NCBI RefSeq assembly: GCF_009754915.1 | Contig: NZ_WPIK01000012.1 | Span: forward strand, 62,001 to 126,000 | Source of the DNA: Mucilaginibacter arboris | GTDB taxonomy: Bacteria > Bacteroidota > Bacteroidia > Sphingobacteriales > Sphingobacteriaceae | Reading direction: 5' to 3' | Length of the DNA stretch: 64,000 bases | Shown here: positions 4,923-61,842 of the stretch, one piece after another | How positions within the stretch are numbered: position 1 is the first letter of the stretch | Layout: each line of letters begins with the position of its first letter | Made by a program: the position numbers and the translations under genes | Notes under the pieces: model-generated | Seen by the model: only the letters and a program-made list of their open reading frames with translations | Database searches by the model: none | Told to the model about the DNA's origin: nothing

Positions 4923-7900
4923 ATGCTGGGGCTGCTTGTATTTTCTTTTCAATTTAAGCCGGTACAAACCTGGGCAGCCAAAAAAGCAACGCATTATTTA
5001 TCAAAGGAACTAAATACAAAAGTTGATATTAAAAGCTTGTATATCAAACCTTTTTCTTCTGTTGTTCTGGAGGGTTTGTATGTTTTGGACAAGCAAAAAG
5101 ACACTTTATTAAGAACGCCGTTATTAACCGTCCAGCTTAGCGGTTTTTCTGTTTTTAACAGTATTTCCGACCGTAAAATTGATTTTAAAAACATCACGCT
5201 TACAGATGGCTCTTTTTACCTGAAAAAACTGAAGAACAAGCATACCAACCTGCAATTTATATTAGATTATTTCAACTCAGGCAGTAACGCTCCAAAAAAG
5301 AAAAGTAAACCCTGGACTACCAATTTTGAAAGAATAACCCTGAACAACTTTCATTTTAGGTATAAAAATCAATTGGTAGATACCATAATTAACGGCGTAA
5401 ACTTTGATGATATTAATTTGACCGGCTTAAATATTGCAACAAGCCATCTCGATTTAAAAAACCATTTGTTTAAAGCAGCTATCGAAAACTTAGCTTTTAA
5501 AGAAAAAAGTGGTTTTATCGTACAAAAACTTGCTTCCTTGGTCACGATTGATACCAACCAGATCGAACTGCAAAAGCTTACGCTAAATACGCCTCATTCC
5601 AGAGTAAGAAACTATTTCAGGATGGGCTTTAAAAGCTTTGATGATTTTGATAATTTTGAGCATAAAGTGATGATGACGGCAGATTTTAAAGATGCCCATT
5701 TATCATCTGCTGACATTGCTTTTTTTGCTGATAAATTGCACCATGTTAAGTTTGAACTTGGATTGGATGGCGTGGTAAAAGGTAAAGTGGATAACCTGAA
5801 AGCTAAAAACCTGGCTGTGCAAGCCGGACAGGCAACCTACATTAAGGGAAATTTCAGTATGAAAGGCTTGCCCGATTGGGAACAGACTTTGATGGAGCTG
5901 AACATTGAACAGGTTTCGACCAATAAAAAAGACCTCGATCTTCTATACAAGAATTTTGCCGATAAAAGAAGCAGTGCCATTCCGGCAATCGTAGATAAGT
6001 TTGGAAACATTAGCTTTAGCGGGCAATTCACAGGTTTCCAGAATGACTTTGTAGCTTATGGGAAGTTTAAAACCAAGCTGGGCAGTTTTAGCTCTGATGT
6101 GAACATGAAGATCAAAGGTGATGTGCCAAGTTACAGCGGCAACATTAAAACCTTTGATTTTAATTTCGGAAGTTTATTAAATGAACCTTCTTTAAACCGC
6201 GCTACCATTTCTGCCGATGTTAACGGCGCGGGTTTCGATTTAAAGACGCTTACTGGTAAACTGGATGCAAAAATCCAGTCGTTGGATTTTAACCGCTACC
6301 GTTACAGCAATGTAAACGTTAACGGTACTTTCCGCAAAAAATATTTTGATGGGGCAGTTTTGGTTAACGATCCGAACTTAAAATTAAATTTTAAAGGAAA
6401 CGTAGATTTAAACCCTGCTTTACCTGTGTTTCACTTTAAATCGGATATAAAAGGGGCACAATTGAACAAGCTTCATTTTTTAAAAGATACCCTTTCTGTT
6501 GATGCCCAGTTTAGTTCTAATTTTTCAGGGAACAGTATTGATAACATCAATGGCAATTTATTGTTAAGGCAGGTAAGGTTAACCAACCCAAGTAATAATT
6601 ACCTGGTAGATTCTTTGTATTTTGCTGCTGAAGGAACAGGCAGGTCACGGGAACTTACGCTAAAATCTTCTCTTGCCGACGGAAGCTTAAAAGGCGATTA
6701 CGATTTAAATACCTTGCCGTCCTACTTTAAAACACTGGTAAAAAAATATATTCCTTCGCTTCAAACTAAATTTGTTCCGCCAAAACCTCAAAATTTTGCC
6801 TTCCGCCTAAACCTGAAAAATTTAGACCCGATTACAACAATCTTTATCCCGAAATTAAAAATTCCGGAACAGGGAACTTTTGTAGGTAATTTTAATTCTT
6901 TCAACAAAACAGCAACGCTAAATGGTTTGATTAAAACAATCCAGTATGATAAAATGGTTTTTCATGATCTTTTGATCGATGAAAGTACGGTGGATGATTT
7001 TATTGGTGTAAATATTTCTTTAAGTAAGGTTAATATTACCGACAGCCTTTTTATCAAAGACATCAACATTACCAACTTTTTAAAGCGCGACAGCTTAAAC
7101 TTCAACATTAAACTTTCTGATAAAAATGCTATTAACCAATTGGATTTATACGGATTGGTTGAATTTGGAAGGGACACTACTGCAAAACTCAAAATTTTGC
7201 CTTCAGACATTATTATTGAACAGCAGAAATGGCGCATTGCAGAACAGGTAAGGATCAGGCTGCTGGAAAATGCACGAACACAAATTGCCAATTTTGTATT
7301 ATCAAACGGCGTACAAAAAATTGGAATTGATGGCTATATTTCTCCTAAACCTGACGATAAGCTCAAGGTTACTTTTGATAATTTCAACCTCGCTTCTTTA
7401 GATCAGTTAACCAAATCTGCCGGTATCAAGCTCAGTGGCGTTTTAAACGGAAATGCTGTATTAAACGCAGTTACCAATAATCCGGGAGTAGAATCTGACT
7501 TGCATGCAGATTCCATCAGCATTAATAAAACTTTAATTGGCAACCTGAAGCTTTCGGCCCAATTAGATAATGCCAATAAAACAGCATTAGTCAACCTAAA
7601 TTTACTAAACAAGGGTTTGGAAACATTGAATGTAAATGGCAAATATAACCTGGCAAGTGAGGACAATAAGCTTGATTTTCATGTTAAAATGAACCAGACA
7701 GAAGCTGTAATTCTTGACCCTTTGGTAAATGACCTGGTTTCTAAATTAAGCGGGCATATTTCTGCAGATCTTGACATAACCGGTATGCCGGAAAAACCTC
7801 AAATTAATGGCAGCATTAGTTTGCAAAATACGGGTTTAACTATTAACTATTTAAAAACCCCTTACATTATTAACGATAATGTTGTTGTTAAAAACAGCAT

Positions 7901-9338
7901 TATAGAAATTAATAACCTGCAACTGAAAGACAACAGGAAAGGCACTGGTATTGTAAATGGTACGGTCAATTTGAATAATTTATCAAACCCTGATATTGAA
8001 GCAACTATTGATGCAAGAAACCTGCTGGCTTTAAATACGGCCTTTAAAGATAACCGTTTGTATTACGGTACTGCTTTTACCACCGGAAAATTCAGTTTTA
8101 AAGGCCCGACCGACAATATGCGGATCGATATCAAAGCTAAAACGGAAGAAGGCACCGTGTTTAACATTCCGCTTAACTCATCCAGTACAGCGAGCAATTA
8201 CGATTTTATTACTTACATCAGCAGGAATTCTTCTAAAAATATAAAAAAAGACCGTTCGTTTAACGGCGTAACACTCAATTTTGACCTTACCATTGATGAA
8301 AAAACACTGGTTAAAATCACTACAGATTATGGTCAGTTAGAAGGAAGCGGAACAGCCAATAACCTCCAACTGAACATTAACAGTTCCGGTGATTTTGAGA
8401 TGCGCGGGGATTATTTAATTTCTAACGGAAAATTTGAGTTTACGGCACAAAACTTTATCAGTAAAGTATTCCAGGTAAACGAAGGAGGAACGATCCGCTG
8501 GACAGGCGACCCATCCAACGCAGAAATCAACTTAAAAGCAATTTACGAAGTACGTACAGATATTAACGATTTGTATAGGGCCGCAGGGTTACCAAATGCA
8601 CAAGAAAGCCAGCAAAAACTGGTAGAGGCAGAAATGATTTTGACCAAATCATTAACCCACCCGGAAATTGATTTCAACTTTAATTTTCCAAACGATCCTG
8701 CTATAAAAGATGAACTGGCCGCTTATTTAAACGATGCAACCAACCGCAATCAGCAAGCGTTAAGTTTAATTGTAAGACGGAAATTTGCAACCGGAACAGG
8801 CGGCGAAAATCTGACCAAAGAAGTTGGCAGCACGGCACAAGATGCTATTAGCGAGTTTGCTTTTAATAAACTGAACAATTTTATTTCGCAATCGAATATT
8901 AAAAACTTCGATCTGAATATCCGTTCTTTTAACGATGCCAGTGCATCTTTTCGATTATTTAATAACCGCTTGTTGTTAAACGGAAGTCTGTACAATAACC
9001 AGGTAGGAAACGACCTTTTTAATCAGAATACAACAACTCTTTTCAACTCAAATTTCAGTAATTTTACTAAAGATTTTGAAGCTCAGTATTTGATTTCTAA
9101 AGACGGAAAGTTAACGGCCAAATATTCTTACCGGGCTTTAAACAGCACGACTTTAAATACCATTAACGACCAATTGGGCCTGCAATATGTTAACGGTTTA
9201 GGTTTGGTTTACCAGCAGGATTTTGATTCCTTTTCAGAATTTTTAAGGAATATTTTTAACCGGAGAAGAAACAGCAGAAAAAATCCGGCACCGGGCAGCG
9301 GAACTTCCAAAACCAATACTGTATTGGATGATAATTAA
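4923..9338 (+). CDS. tamB: TamB-like translocation/assembly module protein (DUF490)
   Basis: Very long periplasm-spanning protein, 1471 residues from the ATG at 4923, with an N-terminal membrane anchor, a long beta-rich groove of repeated AsmA/TamB-like segments, and a C-terminal DUF490 domain (about residues 1050-1450; for example FEFTAQNFISKVFQVNEGG). Family members bridge inner and outer membrane and are linked to outer-membrane protein assembly or lipid transport. The ATG cuts the hydrophobic anchor in two: the frame stays open upstream and adds VIKKALKITLLVLLLLIL, so translation probably starts near 4870 at a non-ATG codon such as ATT at 4872. The gene converges with ribBA. Confidence 0.9.
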   Translation: MLGLLVFSFQFKPVQTWAAKKATHYLSKELNTKVDIKSLYIKPFSSVVLEGLYVLDKQKDTLLRTPLLTVQLSGFSVFNSISDRKIDFKNITLTDGSFYLKKLKNKHTNLQFILDYFNSGSNAPKKKSKPWTTNFERITLNNFHFRYKNQLVDTIINGVNFDDINLTGLNIATSHLDLKNHLFKAAIENLAFKEKSGFIVQKLASLVTIDTNQIELQKLTLNTPHSRVRNYFRMGFKSFDDFDNFEHKVMMTADFKDAHLSSADIAFFADKLHHVKFELGLDGVVKGKVDNLKAKNLAVQAGQATYIKGNFSMKGLPDWEQTLMELNIEQVSTNKKDLDLLYKNFADKRSSAIPAIVDKFGNISFSGQFTGFQNDFVAYGKFKTKLGSFSSDVNMKIKGDVPSYSGNIKTFDFNFGSLLNEPSLNRATISADVNGAGFDLKTLTGKLDAKIQSLDFNRYRYSNVNVNGTFRKKYFDGAVLVNDPNLKLNFKGNVDLNPALPVFHFKSDIKGAQLNKLHFLKDTLSVDAQFSSNFSGNSIDNINGNLLLRQVRLTNPSNNYLVDSLYFAAEGTGRSRELTLKSSLADGSLKGDYDLNTLPSYFKTLVKKYIPSLQTKFVPPKPQNFAFRLNLKNLDPITTIFIPKLKIPEQGTFVGNFNSFNKTATLNGLIKTIQYDKMVFHDLLIDESTVDDFIGVNISLSKVNITDSLFIKDINITNFLKRDSLNFNIKLSDKNAINQLDLYGLVEFGRDTTAKLKILPSDIIIEQQKWRIAEQVRIRLLENARTQIANFVLSNGVQKIGIDGYISPKPDDKLKVTFDNFNLASLDQLTKSAGIKLSGVLNGNAVLNAVTNNPGVESDLHADSISINKTLIGNLKLSAQLDNANKTALVNLNLLNKGLETLNVNGKYNLASEDNKLDFHVKMNQTEAVILDPLVNDLVSKLSGHISADLDITGMPEKPQINGSISLQNTGLTINYLKTPYIINDNVVVKNSIIEINNLQLKDNRKGTGIVNGTVNLNNLSNPDIEATIDARNLLALNTAFKDNRLYYGTAFTTGKFSFKGPTDNMRIDIKAKTEEGTVFNIPLNSSSTASNYDFITYISRNSSKNIKKDRSFNGVTLNFDLTIDEKTLVKITTDYGQLEGSGTANNLQLNINSSGDFEMRGDYLISNGKFEFTAQNFISKVFQVNEGGTIRWTGDPSNAEINLKAIYEVRTDINDLYRAAGLPNAQESQQKLVEAEMILTKSLTHPEIDFNFNFPNDPAIKDELAAYLNDATNRNQQALSLIVRRKFATGTGGENLTKEVGSTAQDAISEFAFNKLNNFISQSNIKNFDLNIRSFNDASASFRLFNNRLLLNGSLYNNQVGNDLFNQNTTTLFNSNFSNFTKDFEAQYLISKDGKLTAKYSYRALNSTTLNTINDQLGLQYVNGLGLVYQQDFDSFSEFLRNIFNRRRNSRKNPAPGSGTSKTNTVLDDN

Positions 9339-9356: not shown

Positions 9357-9418
9357 ATGCTTCTTTTATCACCTAAAAATTTTAATTGACACTATTTTTT
9401 AGGTGATAAAAGAAGCAT
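9357..9418. repeat. Perfect inverted repeat of the dispersed motif between tamB and ribBA
   Basis: Arms 9357-9379 and 9396-9418 are complementary over 23 bp with a 16-base loop. Each arm is the full half-site ATGCTTCTTTTA, TCACCT, AAAAA. It lies between converging genes, so the hairpin could stop transcription from both sides. Confidence 0.9.
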
Positions 9419-9436: not shown

Positions 9437-10642
9437 TTATATATCTTTTAAAATGGCATGACCCATTTTATCGCGTTTTGTTTTTAAATACGTTTCGTTA
9501 TGTGGGTTGGAGGAAATTTCTATGGGTAAAGTTTCTACAATTTCCAATCCATAACCTGATAATCCGGTACGTTTTTTAGGATTATTAGTCAGCAGTTTCA
9601 TCTTGGTGATGTTTAAATCCCTGATTATCTGTGCGCCTACTCCGTAATCGCGCTGGTCCATTTTAAAACCCAGTTGTAAGTTTGCTTCAACAGTATCAAA
9701 ACCGTTTTCCTGCAAATGGTAGGCTTTTAATTTGTTAATCAAACCAATACCGCGCCCTTCCTGGTTCATATAAACAATCACGCCTTTGCCTTCTTTCTGG
9801 ATAATTTCCATCGCTTTGTGCAATTGCGGGCCGCAATCGCAGCGGCAGGAACCAAAAATATCACCTGTAATGCACGAACTATGTACCCTTACCAAAACAG
9901 GTTCATCCGGTTCCCATGTTCCTTTTACCAGTGCAATATGATGTTCGCCCGTACTCTTTTGGGTATAAGCAATCATATCAAAATCTCCCCATTGGGTCGG
10001 CATTTTTACCGAAATTTCTCTTTGGATAAGGCTTTCCGAATTCATCCGGTATTTAATCAGGTTTTCGATAGAAATAATTTTCATATCAAGCTCCTTTGCC
10101 ATTACCTCTAAATCAGGCATACGCGCCATATCGCCATCCTCTTTCAAAATCTCACAAATCACACCTGCAGGTTCAAAACCAGCTAAAACAGCCAAATCTG
10201 TTGCTGCTTCTGTATGGCCGGCACGCCTTAATACGCCGCCTTCTTTAGAAATTAAAGGGAAAATATGGCCTGGCCGCCCTAAATCAGAAGGTTGGGTTGT
10301 GGGATCAATAATGGCTGAAATGGTTTTAGAACGATCTGAAGCAGAAATACCGGTAGTGCAGCCGTGGCCAACCAGATCGACAGAAACGGTAAAATTGGTT
10401 TCGTGGGAAGCTGTATTATTGCCAACCATCAGATCAAGTTCGAGACGTTGCGCGATAGAACGGACCACCGGAACACAAATTAACCCGCGGCCATAACGTG
10501 CCATAAAATTAATTACTACAGGTGTTGCATGATGGGCAGGAATAAAAAAATCACCTTCATTTTCGCGGTCTTCATCATCCACAATAATGATCATTTTACC
10601 GGCTTTTATATCTTCAATAGCTTCTTCTATACTGCTTAACAT
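9437..10642 (-). CDS. ribBA: RibBA, dihydroxybutanone-phosphate synthase / GTP cyclohydrolase II
   Basis: Bifunctional enzyme supplying both riboflavin precursors: ribulose 5-phosphate to 3,4-dihydroxy-2-butanone 4-phosphate (N-terminal RibB, about 1-200), and GTP to the diaminopyrimidine (C-terminal RibA, about 205-400). The RibB acidic motif [10 protein letters not shown] is at about 22-31. The RibA zinc site is [18 protein letters not shown] and the GTP loop is NQEGRGIGL. 401 residues is the normal fused length. The upstream 190 bp show no recognisable FMN riboswitch. Confidence 0.97.
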
Positions 10643-12805: not shown

Positions 12806-12879
12806 GGCGGGGTAGCTCAGATGGTTAGAGCGTAGGATTCATAACCCTAAGGTCGGCAGTTCGATCCTGCTCCCCGCTA
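12806..12879 (+). tRNA. tRNA-Met (anticodon CAT)
   Basis: Cloverleaf: acceptor GGCGGGG with CCCCGCT (first pair G-T), D arm GCTCAGATGGTTAGAGC, anticodon loop TTCATAA, T arm GGCAGTTCGATCCTGCT, discriminator A. CCA is not encoded. The anticodon stem TAGGA/CCCTA has an A-C mismatch next to the loop. A CAT anticodon can also mean a lysidine-modified isoleucine tRNA; the body looks like elongator methionine, but I cannot exclude that. Confidence 0.93.
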
Positions 12880-39051: not shown

Positions 39052-39138
39052 TGGTGCCCACGGAGAGACTCGAACTCTCAAGAGACAATCCTCAACGGCT
39101 TCTGAGACCGCAACGTTTACCAATTTCGCCACATGGGC
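39052..39138 (-). tRNA. tRNA-Leu (anticodon CAG)
   Basis: 87 bases including an encoded CCA. Acceptor GCCCATG with CGTGGGC, discriminator A, anticodon loop CTCAGAA (CAG), a long variable arm typical of leucine tRNAs, and T arm GAGAGTTCGAGTCTCTC. Own promoter and terminator on the reverse strand. Confidence 0.95.
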
Positions 39139-39611: not shown

Positions 39612-39684
39612 GATTCCGTAGCTCAGCCGGTAGAGCATAACACTTTTAATGTTGGGGTCCTGGGTTCGAATCCCAGCGGGATCA
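39612..39684 (+). tRNA. tRNA-Lys (anticodon TTT)
   Basis: Acceptor GATTCCG with CGGGATC, D arm GCTCAGCCGGTAGAGC, anticodon loop CTTTTAA, T arm CTGGGTTCGAATCCCAG, discriminator A; CCA is not encoded. Confidence 0.96.
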
Positions 39685-41383: not shown

Positions 41384-42607
41384 TTACCAGTGATAAGAAA
41401 GTGACAGGCCGGGAATGTAAACATCCGACCGAAAAGTACCAGCGAGTTGAGATTCTATATTAGTTTGTGTACGTGAAAACAGGTGCTCAAACTCAAAAGA
41501 AATATCTACATCTAACCTATTAGCAATTTTGTACCCAAGTCCACCGGTTAAATAATACCTGTTGGCATCCGGAACTTCAGGCGTTACATAACCATCCGGT
41601 GCAGCAGCAGAGGCATAACCCCCTCCTGCCCTAATTGCAAATTTATCGGCTGCTTTATACTCTGCACCGCCTCTCACACTAAAAGCATCTCTGTATAAAC
41701 GAGGAGAATAGGTGTCCTGTAGGGTGGATGTGTTCGAAGCATAATCAAAAGCAAGCGCTTTATAAACATGCCAGCCAACTAAATTGGCATCCAACGCCAA
41801 AGTCCATTGTTTACTTGGATAAAAACCAAAACCTAATGTAGTGGTTGACGGCAGCGGTATGCCCGATGTAAAAGTATTAGGCTGAGGGAAATTAGCCTGA
41901 ACCGATGCCGGCACTTTAAAAATAGCATTACCGCTGTTAATGGTAGTGTTTACTTTAGACCGATAATCAATACCAATGGTAATTCCAGCTTCGGTTTTGA
42001 TAAAAACCCCGGCATTCCAGCCGTAACCCTTGCCATTACCTGTAAGTTGCGCCTGTCCGTCGGCACCTGTTGCATCGGCTAAAGGTATCGCTCTGGTCAG
42101 GTTAACACTGGCCCGGTTATATACAAACCCACCGCCGATGCTTATAAAATCTGCAAGTTTAATACTTAATGTAGGCTGAAAATAAATTGCTTTCAAGTCG
42201 AGGCTTTCCAGTACATATTTACCTTCCCAGCTATTGCCCCAATTGGTTAAACCACCAAAAGGTGTATAAACGCCAAGTCCTAATTTCCACCAGGAGGATT
42301 TCGGGCCAAAAACAGCATATCCGGAAAATGGCGTCGCAAGTTTATCCGCATTATGATAAACATCATTGGTTCCCGAAGGGTTGAAAGCTGACTTAAAAAA
42401 TAGCGGGCTCATACCTGCCTGTATATAATTTTCTGGCAGCATGGCCATTGCACCGGGATTAAAATAAATGGAGGCACCGTCTTGCAGCAACCCGGTCCCA
42501 GTATGTCCCATTCCGATCTGTTTCTGACCTGCAAGGTTAACCTGAAAGCCCTGCGCGCATGCAATTACCGGCAAAAATGCTATCATTAAGAGTAGGAGTT
42601 TTCTCAT
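41384..42607 (-). CDS. OmpP1/FadL/TodX family outer-membrane channel
   Basis: 407 residues from ATG at 42607, which gives a clean signal peptide (RKLLLLMIAFLPVIACAQ); a frame to 42664 would add a poor N-terminus. Motifs fit FadL-type hydrophobic-compound transporters: AGQKQIGMGHTGTGLLQDGA, IYFNPGAMAMLPENY, and a C-terminal aromatic end GLSLSYHW for barrel insertion. It precedes the SGNH lipoprotein. A fatty-acid uptake role would fit the nearby beta-oxidation genes, but the family takes many hydrophobic compounds. Confidence 0.9.
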   Translation of the reverse strand: MRKLLLLMIAFLPVIACAQGFQVNLAGQKQIGMGHTGTGLLQDGASIYFNPGAMAMLPENYIQAGMSPLFFKSAFNPSGTNDVYHNADKLATPFSGYAVFGPKSSWWKLGLGVYTPFGGLTNWGNSWEGKYVLESLDLKAIYFQPTLSIKLADFISIGGGFVYNRASVNLTRAIPLADATGADGQAQLTGNGKGYGWNAGVFIKTEAGITIGIDYRSKVNTTINSGNAIFKVPASVQANFPQPNTFTSGIPLPSTTTLGFGFYPSKQWTLALDANLVGWHVYKALAFDYASNTSTLQDTYSPRLYRDAFSVRGGAEYKAADKFAIRAGGGYASAAAPDGYVTPEVPDANRYYLTGGLGYKIANRLDVDISFEFEHLFSRTQTNIESQLAGTFRSDVYIPGLSLSYHW

Positions 42608-42775
42608 AATAAGTAAAAATAGGTTTGATTGTATATTGTTATAATTGGATTTTCGAACATACAATATTTTGGTAAAAATAACCTCGTTTAATTTCAGAAA
42701 AAGGGTTGAATTTCGGAGATATTAGTCAAAAAGCCGGAAAATATTTATCCTGCAACTTTATTTCATTTACTGGTA

Positions 42776-42858
42776 ATGCTTCTTTTATCAATACAAATTA
42801 TATATTGGTAGTTGAAAAACTTAGCAGTTGGTTGATTTTTAGTTGATAAAAGAAGCAT
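42776..42858. repeat. Divergent motif pair 1 between the two promoters
   Basis: Exact copies at 42776-42787 and 42847-42858. The right one has the T tract and AGTTGA flank; the left one has TCAATAC and AAATT. Confidence 0.85.
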
Positions 42859-42923
42859 CTAAATCAATCATCCAAAATAAACAATTGCTTAAATCCCGTT
42901 TAAATTTAATTAATGTATAGTCA

Positions 42924-43016
42924 ATGCTTCTTTTATCCTGCAAAAACTTGTGATGTTCCTGTAATTTTTATTTAAACGTCATCCAAACACCAACTTTTTA
43001 TCGATAAAAGAAGCAT
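42924..43016. repeat. Divergent motif pair 2 between the two promoters
   Basis: Exact copies at 42924-42935 (flank TCCTGC, AAAAAC) and 43005-43016 (flank TTTTT, ATCGA). The inner 69 bp share no sequence with pair 1. Confidence 0.85.
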
Positions 43017-43153
43017 TGTATTTCTTATGCTAAAAATTTAAACAGGCCCATAATTCAACATAAATTAAATATGTTTGGCAAACAGGCTGCAGCGTTCATC
43101 TACATGCCTGAAACTTGTAAGGACCGTTATTATTTGAACCTGCATCATTTCAC

Positions 43154-44041
43154 ATGAGTAAAAAAGTTGCACAATTAAGCTTTCCAAAGTTTGCTGATTT
43201 ATATGCAGACAAGGCCATCGGTACTGATTTTTTTATTACAGAAGAGAAACATTTACTGGCTTTAAGCGAATATCCTTATCGCTCCGAAGGATATATTGTT
43301 GGGATTTGCACCCGGGGGACTGCCGAAGTGGAAGTGAACTTACAGGTTTACCATGCTAAAAAAAATGCGATATTGCTGGCAACACCCTTTCACATTTTAA
43401 GGATTTATAACAGCAGTGAAGATTTTTTATGCCGGTTCGTGGTTTTTTCGAAAGCGTTTTTAACAGAGAATAATATCAACAGTCACTTTTTAGAATCTTT
43501 TAGTTATTTCAAAACTTCCTCCACGCCGGTTATTTATTTAGAACATGAAAATGCAAAAGTTTTGCTGGAAGTTTTTACGTTGATCCAGCAGAAACTGCAG
43601 CGGGAAGGCCATCCTTATCACACCGAAATAGGCCGAAGTATTTTAACTATGCTTTTATATGAGGTTGCGGCGGTTTATGAGCATCAGCGTGTAATCATCA
43701 AAAGCAAGCAAACCCGGAAACAGGAGTTGAACAGGTTATTCCAAAACCTGGTCTTTCATCATTATAAAGAACACCGAAATGTACAATATTATGCTGATAC
43801 GCTGTGTGTTTCTTCCAAACATCTTACCGAAAGCATTAAAGAGGTAACCGGCAAAACAGCTGGCGAATGGATTGATGATGCAGTGGTTTTAGAAGCCAAA
43901 GTTTTATTGAGGAACCTTGAAAGGAGCATTGCACAAGTTGCTGATGAGATCCATTTTCCAGACCAGTCAACCTTTGGTAAATACTTTAAGAAACAAACCG
44001 GGCTTTCACCTTCCGAATACCGTATCAAAGCCAATAGTTAA
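43154..44041 (+). CDS. AraC-family transcriptional regulator
   Basis: 295 residues. The N-terminal cupin-like half (about 20-160) resembles effector-binding domains; the C-terminal half (about 190-293) has two helix-turn-helix motifs: YYADTLCVSSKHLTESIKEV and IAQVADEIHFPDQSTFGKYF, ending GLSPSEYR. It stands at the head of the beta-oxidation genes, 183 bp before etfB, and is divergent from the OmpP1 gene, so it may control either or both. The effector is unknown. Confidence 0.92.
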   Translation: MSKKVAQLSFPKFADLYADKAIGTDFFITEEKHLLALSEYPYRSEGYIVGICTRGTAEVEVNLQVYHAKKNAILLATPFHILRIYNSSEDFLCRFVVFSKAFLTENNINSHFLESFSYFKTSSTPVIYLEHENAKVLLEVFTLIQQKLQREGHPYHTEIGRSILTMLLYEVAAVYEHQRVIIKSKQTRKQELNRLFQNLVFHHYKEHRNVQYYADTLCVSSKHLTESIKEVTGKTAGEWIDDAVVLEAKVLLRNLERSIAQVADEIHFPDQSTFGKYFKKQTGLSPSEYRIKANS

Positions 44042-46428: not shown

Positions 46429-46923
46429 ATAAATGATACATTTAAAAGAGCGGGATTGCGATAAAAGAAAGCAAGGAGCAAAAGAATGTCGGCAGAAACT
46501 TCTATAAACGGATACATTAAAAGTATAGATCAATTAAAGCAACTTAACTTGTAATTATATAAAGTTTTGGTTTGATAATTACAATGCTTCTTTTATCGAT
46601 AAAAAATTGAAGCTTGTATATGTAGTTATAAAACGTTGCTAATTTTAAGGCGATAAAAGAAGCATGTAAAAAAGTTAAAATTTTTTTGATCAAAGTTGAT
46701 TTTGAATACCGAACTTTTGACAAATCATTCCGAAATACAGACCTTTTTTACGCCTTTTTAAACATGATATTTGTTTAAAGAAACCTAATAGTAAACTAAT
46801 TTCCATTTTAACAATAGCTTCTTTTATAAACAGTGATTTAAAGCTTTCGTAATCCACAAATCATTATTTGTGATTTTTTAAAATTTCCTTTATAAAAAGG
46901 ATAATGTTTTTACAATATAAATT
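46429..46923. other. 495-bp gap with a motif pair
   Basis: Contains the inverted pair 46584-46665, a one-base-insertion variant (ATAGCTTCTTTTA at 46814) and another near copy at 46460. A 24-codon frame at 46434 is not supported. No RNA gene seen. Confidence 0.6.
46584..46665. repeat. Divergent motif pair
   Basis: Exact copies at 46584-46595 (flank TCGAT, A tract) and 46654-46665 (flank TTTTAAGGCGA). Confidence 0.85.
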
Positions 46924-52854: not shown

Positions 52855-52927
52855 GATGCTTCTTTTATCACCTAAAAATTAGTGTTTATATTTGATCTAC
52901 TGATTTTTAGGTGATAAAAGAAGCATC
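52855..52927. repeat. Longest perfect motif inverted repeat in the window
   Basis: Arms 52855-52879 and 52903-52927 are complementary over all 25 bases, loop 23 bases. Each arm holds the full half-site (core, TCACCT, AAAAAT). It stands between two genes in the same direction, 47 bp after the acyl-CoA dehydrogenase stop. Confidence 0.9.
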
Positions 52928-61761: not shown

Positions 61762-61842
61762 ATGCTTCTTTTATCACCTAAAAATCAGCAACCTTTAATT
61801 TTTTTATCAATTTCACTTAAAATTATACGATAAAAGAAGCAT
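61762..61842. repeat. Divergent motif pair between batC and batD
   Basis: Exact copies at 61762-61773 (flank TCACCT, AAAAAT) and 61831-61842 inside the bat operon, so it would lie within the transcript if the operon is continuous. Confidence 0.85.

Follow-up and report, generated by a model that had tools for sequence, protein, structure and literature searches.

Two divergent genes, encoding an OmpP1/FadL-family outer-membrane protein and an AraC-family regulator, are separated by a 546-bp interval in the window, the whole 64,000-nucleotide stretch of DNA that was analysed. The interval contains four exact copies of the 14-mer ATGCTTCTTTTATC, arranged as two inverted pairs, and the positions of these and of the other features are collected in the table below. 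The preliminary description had reported the four copies, and this observation was confirmed, including the length of the interval: the OmpP1 ATG lies at 42607-42605 on the minus strand and the AraC ATG at 43154. The second coordinates that it gave for the pairs, 42847 and 43005, are the same sites counted from the inner 12 bases. It had not recognised that the second pair lies inside a dispersed MITE-like element of about 155 bp. The two genes were identified with Pfam, the OmpP1 stretch that was scanned beginning two codons before the ATG.

Features of the window and of the comEC locus L204; positions are those of the window unless a locus is given
Feature	Position	Strand	Remarks
OmpP1/FadL-family outer-membrane protein gene	41384..42607	-	Points away from the interval; PF03349, E 1.5e-46
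Pair 1, first copy	42776..42799	+	Core 42776-42789, A/T tract about 42795-42799; the sister genome G001 has ATGCTGTTTTTATG at the matching place
Pair 1, second copy	42835..42858	-	Core 42845-42858, A/T tract 42835-42840; G001 has GGTAAAAGAAGCAT 30 bases after its first copy
MITE-like dispersed element carrying pair 2	42893..43049		Terminal inverted repeats CCCGTTTAAATTT at 42895-42907 and AAATTTAAACAGG at 43034-43046; outer ends approximate
Pair 2, first copy	42924..42947	+	Core 42924-42937 plus A tract, inside the MITE-like element
Pair 2, second copy	42994..43016	-	Core 43003-43016 plus A tract, inside the MITE-like element
AraC-family regulator gene	43154..44041	+	Points away from the interval; PF12833 (AraC-type HTH), E 1.7e-19
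Another inverted pair	9357..9418		9357 (+) / 9405 (-); between the ends of the convergent ORFs 4923-9338 (+) and 9437-10642 (-)
Another inverted pair	46584..46665		46584 (+) / 46652 (-)
Another inverted pair	52856..52926		52856 (+) / 52913 (-)
Another inverted pair	61762..61842		61762 (+) / 61829 (-); left flank reads CTGCCTGTTTAAATTT, like the MITE terminal repeat
tRNA gene	12806..12879	+	Rfam
tRNA gene	39055..39138	-	Rfam
tRNA gene	39612..39684	+	Rfam
comEC	L204:9823-11943	-	
~680-aa protein beside comEC	L204:11947-13995	-	HHH-like N-terminus, barrel-like C-terminus

An unrecognised gene or an RNA ending in the interval had been named beforehand as the finding that would overturn the argument against termination, and none was found. 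Apart from the two genes, the ORFs of at least 25 aa (the lower limit used) are 25-46 aa long. No terminator-like site was found in 42550-43250 (0, shuffles 0.5), promoter-like hits were at chance level (5 against 4.2), and Rfam at gathering threshold found only the three tRNAs elsewhere in the window.

The motif is far above chance. The window holds 18 exact copies against 0.00 expected, and 48 copies with up to 2 mismatches against 1.38 expected. The whole genome containing the window (G000; 4.16 Mb in 83 contigs) has 422 + 376 exact copies and none of the reversed control. The sequence ATGCTTCTTTTAYC occurs 1357, 1479 and 711 times in the three genomes of the genus that were examined, and 0-4 times in each of 298 other genomes of the family, drawn evenly from a larger group. 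A scan of a collection of genome contigs with the core plus A tract returned at least 67 stretches. Apart from five single matches in unrelated taxa, these came from two metagenome-assembled genomes, CAHJWG01 (Sphingobacteriaceae bacterium Lichen_MAGs_lobaria3) and NZ_CALMAT01 (uncultured Mucilaginibacter sp.), which are the sister genomes G002 and G001, respectively. A viral or phage origin was rejected, as a collection of viral contigs gave a single stretch with an exact motif-plus-tract match. In samples of 464, 396 and 400 kb from the three genomes, a word of the motif is the highest-scoring over-represented 11-mer (245, 237 and 158 copies, 2.4-3.7 expected), while in 40 kb from each of 8 other genera no 11-mer reached 6 copies, where the densities in the genus would give about 16-24. 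The position-by-position statistics below rest on these samples of 0.40-0.46 Mb per genome, and not on whole genomes.

The anatomy of the motif was determined from 205 sites with up to one mismatch. It is asymmetric, with a 14-bp core AT[G/A]CT(TC|GT)TTTTA[T/C/G]C, then a short R-S-Y-like stretch, and then an A/T tract at about +18 to +23, usually A-rich and then T. The AT fraction in the tract is 0.89-1.00, except for one column of clustered sites at 0.86. The 129 isolated sites show the same pattern as the 76 clustered ones, so the unit is the single site and not the pair. Variation is concentrated at position 3 (G/A), positions 6-7 (TC or GT, rarely the intermediates TT or GC), position 13 (T/C/G) and the end letters. 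At ten inner positions single mismatches are rare (4, 5 and 7 against 79, 65 and 55 exact copies), but counted over all 14 letters the singly mismatched copies outnumber the exact ones (139 against 79 in G000), mostly through position 13 and the dialect and end positions. The generalised core occurs at 0.52, 0.64 and 0.52 per kb. Some tight inward pairs (spacing 27-31) share one tract between two cores, and some wider ones (56-81) are extended imperfect palindromes, as read by eye.

Sites were assigned to genes with crude gene calls made in a script, by which the samples are 84, 81 and 84% coding. Of 241, 254 and 208 sites, 143, 172 and 110 are intergenic, 79, 69 and 82 are coding (on both strands), and 19, 13 and 16 lie at gene edges. 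Of all 703 sites, 555 are single, 115 are in inward pairs and 33 in close outward pairs. Intergenic density was 3.75, 4.97 and 4.07 per kb between convergent genes, 2.26, 2.26 and 1.83 between tandem genes, and 1.54, 2.19 and 0.96 between divergent genes, the last two classes being nearly equal in G001. Intergenic outward-pair sites were 22 tandem, 18 convergent and 3 divergent, and inward-pair sites 59, 25 and 20. Judged from the orientation of called genes alone, pairs appear to favour gene ends, but they also occur between divergent genes. No orientation bias was seen along any of 8 contig stretches (lowest p 0.10). Inside genes the orientation opposite to the gene is commoner (48/31, 45/24 and 46/36; pooled 139 against 91, p 0.002). 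Spacing between site clusters is slightly more even than random (ratio 0.83-0.87).

The evolution of the sites was followed between G000 and G002, which align at about 80% identity over about 200 kb. Of 195 G000 sites in that contig, 94 were not aligned, 10 were gapped and 91 ungapped. Of the 91, 68 are unchanged in G002 at the ten strict positions, 71 fit the full motif and 77 fit it with free end letters. In the reverse direction (208 sites: 111 unaligned, 16 gapped, 81 ungapped) the corresponding figures are 64, 71 and 75 of 81. Random aligned 14-mers are unchanged at the same positions in only 16% and 15%. The sites stay in place and differ by substitution. In coding sites where the amino acid is kept, 150 of 157 codons are identical against 103.0 expected (sd 5.4) from the same codons elsewhere, a control which assumes that codons behave alike inside and outside the motif, and the A/T character of the tract is kept in 0.983 against 0.870. 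The DNA word itself is being maintained. A comparison with genera lacking the motif was weaker, giving 16 alignments for only 15 of 227 coding sites; 14 are ungapped in the motif stretch and 2, both in poor alignments of about 30% identity, are gapped, against 3.2% of control stretches. Depletion in accessory coding DNA is only a trend (2 sites in 26.7 kb against 48 in 178 kb, Fisher p 0.058), and the overall density in unaligned DNA is not lower (0.58 against 0.50 per kb).

At the locus itself, pair 1 has a counterpart at the matching place in G001, consisting of one tight pair with the alternative core spelling in one copy; the alignment beyond it is poor and was read by eye. G002 gave no DNA-level match to the two genes. 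The element around pair 2 has terminal inverted repeats near GAGCCTGTTTAAATTT, and 12 copies from G000, this one included and some of them partial, were aligned (the window copy and loci L056-L064, L066 and L071). It was not seen in the orthologous G001 interval, again by eye. In being short, non-coding, dispersed and bounded by terminal inverted repeats it resembles MITEs, but it accounts for only a minority of the sites and carries the motif rather than being it. The locus thus holds a shared pair plus a mobile-like element with two tags.

The interpretation in the preliminary description was partly supported. It had argued that termination cannot explain motifs lying between genes that both point away, and its central inference holds: termination cannot be the motif's primary role, as sites also occur in divergent intergenic regions and inside genes on both strands, and most are single. 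It had also presented this interval as the strongest local argument for another function. However, as one of the two pairs came with a MITE-like element and the sister species has a single pair here, the locus is a weaker argument than it looks. A promoter-specific or pair-specific recognition site is not what the data show, since single sites carry the full motif, and the function must be genome-wide.

We consider that the motif is most likely a self tag for DNA uptake which works like the uptake sequences (USS and DUS) of Pasteurellaceae and Neisseriaceae, with a probability of about 0.65. In this view the core, followed about one helical turn downstream by the A/T tract, would be bound by a surface DNA receptor during natural transformation. 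Tagged, own-species DNA would be taken up preferentially and recombined into the chromosome, so that copies accumulate and are kept by this drive in coding and non-coding DNA, in either orientation. Inverted pairs would arise secondarily, some perhaps serving as hairpins at gene ends and others riding on the MITE-like element. The abundance of the motif, its restriction to the genus, its anatomy, its evolution in place by substitution, its conservation at the DNA level, the lack of polarity along contigs, the contexts of the pairs and the presence of comEC and ComEA-like genes come directly from the analysis. That the cells are transformable, that tagged DNA is preferred, that a receptor reads the motif, and which machinery is used (by the genes found, not a type IV pilus) are inferences from sequence.

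The features match much of what is listed for uptake sequences in PMC1626085, ie copies near one per kb, in coding and non-coding DNA, a strict consensus (here seen at the ten inner positions but not over all 14 letters), a 3' AT motif with As then Ts, and origin by substitution. The USS of Pasteurellaceae shares with the present motif a strict inner core followed 3' by an A-then-T tract, and hundreds to thousands of copies in both orientations (PMC1626085, PMC1852404). Its inverted pairs at gene ends, which favour terminators (PMC1852404), appear to have a counterpart here, as judged from gene orientation alone. It differs in its core letters, in having two tracts where one is clear here, in its higher density, in lacking the coupled TC/GT alternatives, and in phylum. 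The DUS of Neisseriaceae is likewise a clade-restricted, abundant motif with dialects (PMC3630211), concentrated between genes, and it has pairs at gene ends, as the present motif appears to have, but it has no flanking motifs (PMC1626085). Its receptor is ComP (PMC3630211). ComP is a minor pilin of a type IV pilus. The density found here, 0.5-0.6 per kb, is below the roughly 1 per kb of known systems. The commoner orientation within coding sites also counts against this reading, although PMC2346458 reports one commoner orientation in known systems too. So do the excess of singly mismatched over exact copies when all 14 letters are counted, the depletion in accessory coding DNA that is only a trend, with no lower density in unaligned DNA overall, and the 2 gapped alignments of 16 to genera without the motif.

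The main difficulty is the machinery. The known uptake-sequence systems use type IV pili, but a profile search for the type IV pilus/T2SS ATPase (PF00437), the only pilus part searched for, gave nothing above the cut-off of 24.9 bits in any of the three genomes of the genus, with weak partial matches of 22.9 and 19.9 bits in G000 and G002, while 7 of the 25 genomes in that search do have it. Uptake would therefore need other machinery, as in Riemerella. In R. anatipestifer a transposon screen named eight essential genes, among them ComEC, DprA, ComF, RecA, an HHH protein, a DUF1343 protein, a DUF5689 protein predicted in the fimbrium and a predicted outer-membrane protein, with no type IV pilus gene among the eight (PMC8459023), and R. 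columbina prefers its own DNA (PMC7965970). A k-mer count in Riemerella listed only A-rich words and no clear uptake sequence (PMC7965970). Apart from that inconclusive count, no report of an uptake sequence in Bacteroidota was found in a partial search of the open-licence literature (which included PMC7811141 and PMC1939737). ComEC, an HHH_3 protein and a PF07075 protein (DUF1343 in PMC8459023) are present in all three genomes of the genus, and the 306-aa HHH protein of G000 is ComEA-like, but DUF5689 (PF18942) was found in none of the three.

Next to comEC lies a protein of about 680 aa without a Pfam or NCBIfam match and without a relative of solved structure in a PDB sequence search at E up to 1. 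From its sequence alone, it has a signal-peptide-like start, an HHH-like N-terminal stretch and a C-terminus ending in aromatic letters (YRF or FQF/YQF), as outer-membrane barrels do. It is a candidate for the outer-membrane step, perhaps as a DNA channel. ComEC and this neighbour each occur in 23 of the 25 genomes searched, the neighbour in some as partial or split matches, and in all 13 family genomes in which both were found they lie on the same contig within a few kb. Most of these genomes lack the motif, and neither gene is diagnostic. A more far-reaching possibility, which we regard as tentative, is that this is a third, independent origin of sequence-tagged DNA uptake, the first in Bacteroidota, working without a type IV pilus. 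The tag would be read by an outer-membrane system, perhaps the comEC neighbour, and the two core spellings would coexist as dialects in each genome.

Uptake sequences are described from two proteobacterial families, both with type IV pili, and no further clades are known. How such a preference starts is an open question, and an independent case in another phylum, confined to one genus and without the pilus, would show that self-tagging of DNA can evolve on different machinery. It would also give a handle on the unknown outer-membrane step of transformation in Bacteroidota, as whatever binds the motif would be the receptor. In practical terms, this reading predicts that these lichen-associated bacteria are transformable, and which tag to put on DNA to transform them.

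Of the alternatives, the one that survives best, although we consider it unlikely, is a binding site for a chromosome-organising (nucleoid, domain or segregation) or other intracellular DNA-binding protein unique to the genus and kept by ordinary purifying selection. The genome-wide spread, the conservation at the DNA level and the bipartite core plus A tract would fit a protein that bends DNA. Against this, there is no polarity along contigs, the inner core is stricter than is usual for intracellular sites (a contrast drawn in PMC1626085), and the many copies inside genes would need individual selection. None of this excludes it.

Intrinsic transcription terminators, with the inverted pairs forming hairpins, are very unlikely as a general explanation. 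In all three samples sites are densest in convergent and least dense in divergent intergenic regions, and some outward pairs are followed by T-runs. However, 555 of the 703 sites are single, 230 lie inside genes on either strand, and no terminator-like site was found in this interval, where both genes point away. Of the 33 sites in close outward pairs, 22 have an A-rich and 10 a T-rich tract, so the tract is not a terminator tail in general. Termination is at most a co-opted role.

Debris or active copies of a MITE/REP-like mobile element are equally improbable. The dispersed element with GTTTAAATTT terminal repeats does carry two inward-facing copies, many inward pairs are 56-81 bp apart, and some of these have element-like flanks. 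Yet a search for such flanks on inward pairs 50-95 bp apart found few (scores of 3 of 11, 6.5 of 24 and 0 of 6, with half marks for one-sided flanks), so the element does not explain most pairs. Isolated sites show no conserved flank beyond core and tract, aligned sites differ between species by substitution, coding sites keep the reading frame (such as NASFTG and PVKEAS), and 14 of 16 alignments to genera without the motif are ungapped. A mobile element loaded with uptake-like tags could itself spread by transformation.

A recombination signal of the Chi kind, or another polar chromosome signal, would fit over-representation in both strands, retention in conserved genes and the bias towards the strand opposite to the gene, but is made very unlikely by the lack of orientation bias along the stretches and by the length of the motif, 14 bp plus an A/T tract, whereas Chi sites are 5-8 bp.

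The two spellings at core positions 6-7 are not fixed at a given site. Of the 91 aligned G000 sites, 9 switch from TC to GT and 3 from GT to TC between the species, although the intermediates TT and GC are rare.
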